From: Geomonas sp. RF6
GTDB lineage: Bacteria; Desulfobacterota; Desulfuromonadia; Geobacterales; Geobacteraceae
Assembly: GCF_021044625.1 (NCBI RefSeq)
Contig: NZ_CP087999.1
Coordinates: 575,001-639,000 of the forward strand
Direction: 5' to 3'
DNA length: 64,000 bases
Below are positions 22,328-55,566 of the stretch, piece by piece. The position numbers were made by a program, and so were the translations under genes. Below the pieces are notes generated by a model. The model worked only from the letters and a program-made list of their open reading frames with translations, was not told the DNA's origin and made no database searches. Position 1 is the stretch's first letter. The number at the start of each line of letters is the position of its first letter.

Positions 22328-22412
22328 GATACACGACAATACTAAAGCTTCCGCGAGGGAGTGACGGAAAGCCTACAGGGTCTCACCGAGACAGCCGGGT
22401 CGCCGAAATATC
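22328..22412 (+). ncRNA. GEMM-Ib (3',3'-cGAMP-type) riboswitch aptamer
   Basis: The segment follows the GEMM-I aptamer closely. P1 arms are GATA/TATC at the two ends, then ACACGACAATACTAAA, a hairpin closed by a GCGA tetraloop region (CCGCGAGG), the GGAAAGCC junction, a second hairpin GGGTCTC..GAGAC, and the receptor AGCCGGGTCGCCGAAAT. It matches nearly base for base the Geobacter aptamers shown to sense 3',3'-cGAMP. The ACTAAA at 22341-22346 carries A where c-di-GMP-selective aptamers carry the ligand-contacting G20. It stands about 200 bp ahead of the malectin-domain gene. Confidence 0.9.
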
Positions 22413-22438
22413 ACACGATATGAGGACCCGGCTTTTTT
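22394..22438 (+). terminator. Riboswitch-controlled intrinsic terminator
   Basis: GCCGGGTC (22394-22401) pairs perfectly with GACCCGGC (22425-22432), followed by six T. The 5' arm is part of the aptamer's own 3' helix, so ligand-stabilised aptamer and terminator exclude each other. The geometry predicts an ON switch, with transcription proceeding when the dinucleotide is bound. Confidence 0.85.
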
Positions 22439-22610
22439 GCGTCTGCAGGGGAAATTGCGACCTGAAGTCGGGGAAATGGAAACGTGGCAACACCAACCAA
22501 ACCCCTTTTAAGGAGCTGAAAAAGCGGCAGCAAGCACCATGCTAAGTCCGGAAGGGTGCCGGGATGCTCGTAAGGGCCCGGCAAAAGAACTAAGGGAGGA
22601 AGCATCATCT

Positions 22611-24191
22611 ATGGTTAGAACTACCGTTTCAAAGGCAGCAGCATTTTTCCGCCGGAACTGTCTCGCCCCCGTCGTGGCGGCCGTACTGGCAGTGACCCTC
22701 GCAGGCGCCCCGGAGGCACAGGCGGCAACAGCGACACTTACCTGGAGCGCCCCCACCACCAACAGCGACGGCTCGAGCCTCACCGACCTCGCCGGCTACA
22801 AGGTCTACGTCGGCACCTCCTCCGGGAGCTACCAGCCCGGGGTCGATGTCGGGAAGGTCACGAGCTACACCGTGAGCAACCTCACCGACGGCGGCACCTA
22901 CTACTTTGCCATCACGGCGTACAACAGCGCAAGGGTCGAGAGCTCACGTTCCAATGAAGTGAGCAAGGCGACAGCGGTCACAGCATACACCATCACGGCG
23001 AGCGCCGGAACCGGCGGTTCGATCACCGCAACGGGGAACACCAACGTCTCCAGCGCCACGAACGGCAGCACGACCATCACGAGCGTTACCGTCGCATCAG
23101 GCGCCAACCAGACCTTCAGCATCACCCCCGCCAGCGGCTACAGCGTGGCGAGCCTGACGGTCGACGGCGCGGCAGTCGCGGCGGCCACTTCCTACACCTT
23201 CGCGACCGTAAAAGCGAACCACACCATCGCCGCCACCTTCAGCGCGACGAGCGGCGGCACCACGACCGGCACCGGAACCGGCACCGGCACCACCACCGGC
23301 ACCGCGGCCCCGATCTTTGCGACCAACAGCGGCGGCGCGCAGTACACCGACGCCAGCGGTGCGATCTACTCCGCGGATACGAAGTACAGCGGCGGGAGCG
23401 TCGCTTCAGTCACCAGCGCCATCAGAGGCACCGCAGATCAGAAGCTGTACCAGAGCGAGCGCTACGGCAACTTCACCTACAGCGTCCCTGTGGCAAACGG
23501 CAACTACACGGTCACCCTGAAGCTTGCGGAGACGTACTGGACCGCGGCGGGGAAACGCGTCTTCAACGTGGCGGTGAACGGTACCACCGCGATCAGCAAC
23601 CTCGACGTCTTTGCGAAGGTCGGCAGCAACGCCGCCTACGATGTGACCATTCCGGTCAACGTCTCCACCGGCACCCTCTCCCTCGCCTTCACGAGCGTGG
23701 TCGACAACGCGAAGGTCTGCGCCATCGTGGTGAAGCCGACGACCGCCGGGAGCCCTGTCTTCGCCATCGATGCAGGTGGTACGAACTACCTGAGCGCCAC
23801 CGGTCTCGTCTACCTCCCCGACACCAGGTTCACCGGGGGTGTGAATTCCTCCACCACCACGAGCGCCATCACCGGGACGACCGACGGGAAGATGTACCAG
23901 AACAACCGCCGCGGCAACTTCTCCTACAACATCCCCGTCGCCAACGGCAACTACACCGTGCGCCTGAAGTTCGCCGAGACGTACTGGAGCGCCGCCGGCA
24001 GCCGCGTCTTCGACGTCGCAGTCAACGGGGCCACCGCCCTCAGCAACGTGGACATCTTCTCCAAGGTCGGCAAGAACGCGGCCTACGACGTGGAGATCCC
24101 GGCAACGGTCAGCAACGGCAACCTGAGCATCGGCTTCACCACCAAGGTCGACAACGCCCTGGTGAGCGCCATCCTCGTTACCGCTCGGTAG
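22611..24191 (+). CDS. Secreted FN3-repeat-double malectin protein under riboswitch control
   Basis: 526 residues from ATG 22611 (GGGAGGAAG ribosome site 11 bp upstream; an earlier in-frame ATG at 22539 lacks a good site). A signal peptide ends near APEAQA/A (residue 39). A fibronectin-III domain (about 42-121) is followed by a bacterial repeat domain (about 124-213), a Thr/Gly linker, and two malectin-like domains (about 235-375 and 382-526). The malectin domains are clear duplicates, with GNFxYxxPVANGNYTVxLKxAETYW in each. Malectin domains bind carbohydrate, so this should be an extracellular matrix or polysaccharide-binding protein. It has no heme motif or membrane anchor. Confidence 0.88.
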   Translation: MVRTTVSKAAAFFRRNCLAPVVAAVLAVTLAGAPEAQAATATLTWSAPTTNSDGSSLTDLAGYKVYVGTSSGSYQPGVDVGKVTSYTVSNLTDGGTYYFAITAYNSARVESSRSNEVSKATAVTAYTITASAGTGGSITATGNTNVSSATNGSTTITSVTVASGANQTFSITPASGYSVASLTVDGAAVAAATSYTFATVKANHTIAATFSATSGGTTTGTGTGTGTTTGTAAPIFATNSGGAQYTDASGAIYSADTKYSGGSVASVTSAIRGTADQKLYQSERYGNFTYSVPVANGNYTVTLKLAETYWTAAGKRVFNVAVNGTTAISNLDVFAKVGSNAAYDVTIPVNVSTGTLSLAFTSVVDNAKVCAIVVKPTTAGSPVFAIDAGGTNYLSATGLVYLPDTRFTGGVNSSTTTSAITGTTDGKMYQNNRRGNFSYNIPVANGNYTVRLKFAETYWSAAGSRVFDVAVNGATALSNVDIFSKVGKNAAYDVEIPATVSNGNLSIGFTTKVDNALVSAILVTAR

Positions 24192-54408: not shown

Positions 54409-55566
54409 TCAGTACGCCCCTTTGCAGCGGATCACCGCCACCGGGGTCTTCAGGAGAATCTTCACATCGACCAGGACCGACCATCCCTTTATGTAGCGCA
54501 GGTCCAGCCGCACCATCTCGTCAAAGCTCGTCGTGCTCCTGCCGGTAACTTGCCAAAGCCCGGTGATCCCCGGTTTCCTCCCCATGACCCGCCTGCGCTG
54601 CCAGGGGAAGTAGTTCTCCACCTCGTACAATATGGGGGGGCGCGGGCCGACGAGGGACATCTCCCCCTTCAGCACGTTGAAGAACTGCGGGAACTCGTCG
54701 ATGCTGTACTTGCGCAGGAACCTCCCGAGCGGGGTCACGCGCGGGTCGCCCTGGATCTTGTACACGGTGACGGCGCCGGAGGAAGCCCCGGAGGACTTGT
54801 CCCGTATGAGGGACTCCACGAATTTCCGGTGCATGAGGTCGTCGTTGTTGAGATACATCGAGCGGAACTTGAGGAGCTGGAAGGGCTTCCCGTTGCGGCC
54901 GACCCTTTCCTGCCGGAAAAAGACGGGCCCCTTCGAGGTGAGCTTTATGAGGATCGGAACGGTGATGAAAAAGGGGGAGAAGAGGATAAGGCCGACGATG
55001 CTGCCGAGCACGTCCATGGAGCGCTTCGCGATGTCCCACCCCCGGCTCCCCGTCTCCGCGGCATCGGGGTACCACGTCACATCGTTTACCCCTTTGCCCC
55101 CTTCGCTCTCCGGGAAGGTCCTGAAGGAGATGACGATCCGTTCGACGACCTCGGGGGGAAGAAGGGCCACCAGCCGCTCCCTGATCTTCCTCGTGACCGC
55201 CTCCTTTGCCTTCTCCACCATCTCCGGCTCAACCTCCGTGAGGATGACCCCGGTGACACGGTCGCCGTCCATCTGGCCGCATATGTCGGTGTCCCTGACC
55301 GTGGCGTTCAGTACCTGCGCCAGGAAGTGGGCCGGGTTTTCGGCGTCTTCCACGGCTTCGGAATCCTGCACCTTCGTTGCATCGACGAGCATCACGATGA
55401 GCGGCTTGTTGGAGCGTTCCGCTCTCTTTCTCTCCTGGACGAGCTTCTTTCTGAAATACGGTTCAGGATAAAGTCCGTTCTCCGGCTGGAATAAAACTGG
55501 AGCAGAAGCACTCTTCGAAAGAAGCTGTCTGAACCAGGATTGTTTCTTCAACGCGTTCGGTGACAT
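54409..55566 (-). CDS. Initiating undecaprenyl-phosphate sugar transferase with degenerate GGDEF-like N-terminus
   Basis: 385 residues. The C-terminal 200 residues are a bacterial sugar transferase (KRSMDVLGSIVGLILFSPFF, GPVFFRQERVGRNGKPFQLLKFRSM, RYLIDEFPQ-like SIDEFPQFFNVLKGEMSLVGPRPP, GITGLWQVTGR) that loads the first sugar phosphate on undecaprenyl phosphate. The N-terminal about 175 residues look like a GGDEF domain (YPEPYFRKKLVQERKRAERSNKPLIVMLVD, then DTDICGQMDGDRVTGVIL) in which GGDEF has become DGDRV, so it cannot make c-di-GMP. First gene of the locus, behind a consensus promoter. Confidence 0.9.
   Translation of the reverse strand: MSPNALKKQSWFRQLLSKSASAPVLFQPENGLYPEPYFRKKLVQERKRAERSNKPLIVMLVDATKVQDSEAVEDAENPAHFLAQVLNATVRDTDICGQMDGDRVTGVILTEVEPEMVEKAKEAVTRKIRERLVALLPPEVVERIVISFRTFPESEGGKGVNDVTWYPDAAETGSRGWDIAKRSMDVLGSIVGLILFSPFFITVPILIKLTSKGPVFFRQERVGRNGKPFQLLKFRSMYLNNDDLMHRKFVESLIRDKSSGASSGAVTVYKIQGDPRVTPLGRFLRKYSIDEFPQFFNVLKGEMSLVGPRPPILYEVENYFPWQRRRVMGRKPGITGLWQVTGRSTTSFDEMVRLDLRYIKGWSVLVDVKILLKTPVAVIRCKGAY

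Follow-up and report, generated by a model that had tools for sequence, protein, structure and literature searches.

The window analysed here, a 64,000-nucleotide stretch of the genome of Geomonas sp. RF6, carries on its forward strand a leader with an aptamer and an intrinsic terminator, followed by two genes for secreted proteins (Table 1). The first gene starts at an ATG at 22611. Its product has a signal peptide, recognized by inspection of the sequence, an FN3 domain, an InlB repeat that lies below the Pfam cut-off, and two malectin domains; among solved structures in the PDB, relatives of malectin are matched at E=2.4e-21. The beta-helix gene that follows is likely to be on the same transcript; it adjoins the FN3 gene in four related loci as well (L080, L161, L181, and L182). 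The Pfam assignments agree with the first-pass annotation, which had named as targets of the leader a secreted protein with FN3 and malectin domains and one with a beta helix.

Glycan binding by the malectin protein is plausible, judging from its domain family. Five residues bind the sugar in animal malectin, at positions that we take to include Tyr67, Tyr89, Tyr116, and Phe117: the first malectin domain keeps Tyr89 and Tyr116, has Trp in place of Phe117, and has lost Tyr67 (the fifth residue lies outside the alignment), and the second has Arg at the position of Tyr89. The next genes, on the opposite strand, encode glycosyltransferases and a branching enzyme, and what appears from the translations to be a large polysaccharide cluster then extends to about 55.5 kb; the probable site of action of both proteins encoded behind the leader is the extracellular polysaccharide matrix. 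At 54409-55566 of the window, on the minus strand, lies an apparent initiating sugar transferase, the N-terminal part of which gives a weak GGDEF match (genome positions 630177-630473); this is apparently a degenerate GGDEF domain fused to an exopolysaccharide enzyme.

Table 1. Features of the leader, of its target genes, and of two multi-switch leaders elsewhere in the genome. Positions are those of the window, except where a genome contig (G000:C1) is given.
Feature	Position	Strand	Basis or detail
GEMM-I (c-di-GMP-I clan) aptamer, cGAMP type (GEMM-Ib)	22331..22407	+	RF01051, 39.5 bits; R1, 97.8 bits
Specificity nucleotide A, equivalent to G20 of c-di-GMP aptamers	22341	+	Rfam alignment and alignment of 23 siblings
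GCGA-loop stem (GCUUCC/GGGAGU) of the aptamer	22347..22362	+	Rfam, fold, sibling alignment
Intrinsic terminator	22393..22438	+	5' arm GCCGGGTC, 22394-22401; 3' arm, 22425-22432; T-run, 22433-22438
Shine-Dalgarno sequence GGGAGGA of the first gene	22594..22600	+	Sequence
Secreted protein, 526 aa: signal peptide, FN3, divergent InlB B-repeat (weak), two malectin domains	22611..24191	+	Pfam; solved malectins 2k46 and 9ikp
Right-handed beta-helix / pectate-lyase-like secreted protein, 558 aa	24276..25952	+	Pfam
Four-switch array (L037)	G000:C1:3033428-3034088, about 660 nt	-	
Two-switch hydrogenase leader (L038)	G000:C1:1571620-1571969	-	

The aptamer and its specificity nucleotide

The aptamer matches the Rfam model RF01051 over its full length (model positions 1-87; E=3.1e-4 for 64 kb) and exceeds the gathering score of this model, which is 35, and thus belongs to GEMM-I. 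In an 801-nt context, the fit is better with RF03167, a second member of the clan (41.7 bits, E=2.6e-8), but the gathering score of that model, 59, is not reached. Among the genome copies scored, the window copy ranks 26th of 27 by RF01051, because that model is trained on c-di-GMP aptamers; R1, a model built from the aptamer copies of the Geomonas sp. RF6 genome (the window copy included), gives it the far higher score listed in Table 1. Two of the pairs in the first stem of the aptamer are G-U, which makes this stem less regular than its counterparts in the siblings; in the alignment, the aptamer keeps every column that is invariant among the 23 siblings. The covariance search proposed in the first-pass annotation, which had read the leader as a GEMM-Ib aptamer of the Geobacter kind, thus gave a match above threshold, and the score with R1 agrees with that reading.

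Some GEMM-I aptamers bind both dinucleotides, so that an A at the specificity position is by itself no proof of selectivity. In the Rfam alignment, A22341 stands where the consensus 'aGGC' has its first G; an A at this position is the sequence hallmark of GEMM-Ib and, together with the sibling alignment, supports the cGAMP type that had been proposed for this aptamer. In the Gmet_0970 switch, a change from A to G at nucleotide 20 converts selectivity for cGAMP into selectivity for c-di-GMP (PMC6456294), and the G/A rule is backed by the in-line probing of Sherlock et al. (PMC9481103). It is therefore improbable that c-di-GMP is the ligand, or that the two dinucleotides are sensed about equally, and that the switch reports general biofilm signalling rather than cGAMP: the best-matching Rfam families do carry the c-di-GMP name, and the genome does have about 30 GGDEF matches, mostly ordinary ones, but the nucleotide that contacts the second base of the ligand is A and not G, the published substitution and the in-line probing concern exactly this difference, and true G-type aptamers (L001-L003) are also kept in the genome.

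The genome further contains two Hypr-type GGDEF genes, both with the Ser-for-Asp exchange of the cGAMP pathway, so that the search for such enzymes suggested at first pass was successful. One (L063) encodes a REC-GGDEF protein in which Ser occupies the Hypr position (GHLVGS..GGDEY), for which the closest solved structure is 6d9m, the crystal structure of a GacA fusion; the other (L076) combines Ser with GGDDF (AKGS..GGDDF), like the combination reported for GSU1937. Enzymes of the GacA type can make both cGAMP and c-di-GMP.

The terminator and the direction of switching

The 5' arm of the terminator pairs perfectly with the 3' arm, GACCCGGC, which is followed directly by six T; the same 5' arm also forms the 3' strand of the second helix of the aptamer, the overlap that characterizes GEMM-Ib ON switches. 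The 64 nt from 22376 to 22439 fold at -26.5 kcal/mol (z = -4.3), a value equalled by none of 200 shuffled sequences. A comparable hairpin with a T-run is found in 21 of the 23 sibling copies of this scaffold, at about -16 to -30 kcal/mol for the trimmed segments; the remaining two (L009 and L011) are cut short by the trimming rule and have arms that match by eye. The perfect terminator arm within the 3' helix of the aptamer, as noted at first pass, is confirmed by the pairing and the fold statistics, and the shared strand and the sibling hairpins lend support to the ON-type expression platform that had been deduced from it. In G. sulfurreducens, deletion of gacA lowers the expression of all genes behind GEMM-Ib, and an insertion that weakens a terminator relieves the requirement for cGAMP (PMC6456294). 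Given these results and the sibling hairpins, switching ON by cGAMP is the best reading.

All parts of such a switch are present in the sequence, that is the aptamer, the diagnostic A, the shared strand, the terminator, the gene order, and the synthase genes; as to ligand and direction, we infer from them that the element is very probably a GEMM-Ib riboswitch that responds to 3',3'-cGAMP and controls transcription elongation as an ON switch. Without ligand, the RNA strand GCCGGGUC would pair with the downstream GACCCGGC and RNA polymerase would stop at the U-run, at 22438. With cGAMP bound, which the Hypr GGDEF enzymes of the genome would supply, the strand would be held in the aptamer and the terminator would not form; read-through would then yield a transcript of both genes, for the FN3/malectin and the beta-helix proteins, if these are co-transcribed as presumed. 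A scan of this strand found no clear sigma-70 promoter upstream of the switch. The absence of a promoter-like site and the low rank by RF01051 might suggest a decaying copy without regulatory effect, its genes driven by a constitutive or other downstream promoter; this is highly improbable for an aptamer that keeps all invariant columns of its siblings, scores as it does with R1, is followed by a perfect terminator, and stands in an arrangement conserved in a Geomonas relative (L080).

GEMM-I copies across the genome

The genome (5.26 Mb, one contig) contains at least 27 matches to RF01051, a lower bound, as the scoring covered 150 of the 472 candidates from the first look. Of these 27, 23 share the scaffold of the window copy, 22 with A and one (L022) with G at the specificity position. 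This one copy (G000:C1:3266573-3266649; AAAAGCCATG) retains a GEMM-Ib-like scaffold and precedes a FemAB/GNAT gene; it may be a natural reversion to c-di-GMP. L002, L003, and L004 form a third GEMM-I lineage, flanked by CTGTTTC/GAAACAG arms, in which L004 has A at the specificity position (AAATAGTAAAT) within the scaffold of L002 and L003.

The units behind the copies were called from open reading frames and Pfam, and their first genes by a simple codon-usage rule. FN3 proteins follow four A-type switches (L017, L024, L025, and L026, the last being the window copy), and the arrangement of the window recurs elsewhere in the genome (L024; L045, on G000:C1 behind the switch at 3681012-3681088), again as a GEMM-Ib switch, an FN3/InlB protein, and a beta-helix protein. 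Several units are preceded by more than one A-type switch: four in series (L010, L014, L015, and L019; the array L037 in Table 1) before an exopolysaccharide export operon of the PEP-CTERM/Wza type, two in series (L011 and L016; L038) before hypC and the genes for both subunits, small and large, of a NiFe hydrogenase, and two (L013 and L021) before an L,D-transpeptidase. Through the hydrogenase leader, cGAMP may control hydrogen metabolism. Single A-type switches precede genes for a REC-PilZ protein, a bacteriohemerythrin, an M15 peptidase, FecR, an outer membrane protein, a DUF4382 protein, and a histidine kinase; among the callable first genes behind A-type switches of the genome, none encodes a multiheme cytochrome.

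Leaders with two types of aptamer in related genomes

Of 117 related genomes covered by a protein search, 29 encode relatives of the FN3/malectin protein, its own genome included. Most of the leaders examined in this family have an A-type aptamer (92-105 bits with R1), and in the Geomonas relative (L080) the A-type aptamer, the FN3/malectin homologue, and the beta-helix gene follow each other in the same order. Nine of the loci also hold an aptamer of the c-di-GMP type, at 74-86 bits with RF01051. A model of this element (R2) finds 12 instances in leaders of the FN3 family, in 11 of the 117 genomes, spread over 8 genera and three families. Ten of the 12 are mixed tandems (L165, L170, L174, L178, L184, L185, L187, L202, L207, and L208): one or two A-type switches lie upstream on the same strand, the nearer at a distance of 76-181 nt. 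The first aptamers all have A at the specificity position, and the second ones have a G core that reads GGGC, GGGT, GGT, or GGC. Of the other two instances, L201 lacks an A-type copy in the 1.3 kb upstream, and L209 lies 500 nt from the end of its contig. A candidate for a further mixed tandem, on G005:C70, was rejected, as both of its copies are of the A type. Another leader (L188, 684-1398) holds four aptamers, three of the A type and a degenerate one of the c-di-GMP type without the GG core.

On the 3' side of the second aptamer, a helix covers the Shine-Dalgarno sequence, for example AGTACCTC/GAGGTACT; its longest perfect stretch measures 7-12 bp in the ten mixed tandems, and L208 builds the same helix from a different pair of sequences, ACTCCTTCT/GGAAGGAGT. 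The consensus fold of nine sequences contains some compensatory changes, in this helix as well as in the aptamer stems. Since it would sequester the Shine-Dalgarno sequence, the helix points to translational control by the c-di-GMP-type aptamer. In the predicted folds, the Shine-Dalgarno sequence is sequestered both when the first stem of the aptamer is forced, as in the bound state, and when it is blocked, as in the free state (mean accessibility 0.09 and 0.10, respectively). In several leaders, the 3' strand of this stem could pair with another segment instead; this is no more than a hint, because p < 0.05 is reached in only 3 of 13 leaders.

We consider it likely that these FN3 tandem leaders are true two-ligand devices for cGAMP and c-di-GMP. 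In such a leader, cGAMP would license transcription through the A-type antitermination switch and c-di-GMP would set translation, so that the leader would compare two dinucleotides made by one enzyme superfamily; c-di-GMP may turn translation off (cGAMP AND NOT c-di-GMP) or on (AND). A tandem survey lists gates of AdoCbl with c-AMP-GMP and of AdoCbl with c-di-GMP-I, and assigns its 347 doublets of c-di-GMP-I to the systems with a single ligand (PMC9481103); a pair of c-AMP-GMP and c-di-GMP-I is absent from its logic-gate table (Sherlock et al. 2022). The two-input tandems described there consist of two switches for different ligands in series, as do the related FN3 leaders and unlike the window leader (PMC9481103). 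The literature searched contains no description of a mixed cGAMP/c-di-GMP tandem, and an earlier mention is possible in the founding papers of 2015 in PNAS. If the proposal is true, one leader reads both signals in series, and the way in which cells keep or combine the two dinucleotide signals could be studied with a single reporter and both ligands; the two-aptamer leaders matter more than the window copy.

The window leader has a single aptamer

Neither Rfam (up to E 5) nor R1 or R2 finds a second aptamer in the window leader, and R2 has no match above threshold in the genome of Geomonas sp. RF6. By fold and Rfam, no switch-like structure lies between the terminator and the Shine-Dalgarno sequence: a second structured element at 22440-22612 was rejected (fold z about 0, no Rfam match), as was a remnant of a c-di-GMP-type aptamer in the same interval, where the best of nine comparisons was reached by 12 of 200 shuffles. 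The window switch may represent the cGAMP part of a leader for two signals, complete in its relatives; that it lost a second half, rather than never having one, is a proposition for which we see about even chances. In a tree of the FN3 domains, for which the domain was in some loci taken from a neighbouring paralogue, leaders with mixed tandems, with single switches, and without switches are scattered over weakly supported branches.

Comparison with known systems

GEMM-Ib riboswitches of Geobacter that respond to cGAMP were reportedly described by Kellenberger and by Nelson in 2015, and control by cGAMP is best known from electron-transfer genes. The window element shares with the Geobacter switches (G. 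sulfurreducens pgcA/GSU1761 and the OmcAHG leaders; PMC6456294) the scaffold, the A at the specificity position, and the strand common to aptamer and terminator, and is expected to be ON like them. It differs in its target, FN3/malectin and beta-helix proteins where the Geobacter switches precede genes for cytochromes or pili. The first-pass annotation had regarded this target as unusual: the two target genes are indeed neither cytochrome nor pilus genes, but the target is not new in kind, since fibronectin type III genes regulated by GEMM (Gbem_1796, Gbem_1798, and Gbem_1799) are described for G. bemidjiensis (Aklujkar 2010, PMC2996986), and polysaccharide genes are already among the known cGAMP targets (PMC6456294). 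In G. bemidjiensis, a GEMM riboswitch precedes genes for FN3 surface proteins as it does in the window; the description predates the recognition of cGAMP as a ligand, and its passages on these genes mention neither a malectin domain nor a second type of aptamer (PMC2996986). Relative to these systems, the window copy would extend control by cGAMP to secreted malectin and beta-helix matrix proteins encoded beside a polysaccharide cluster.
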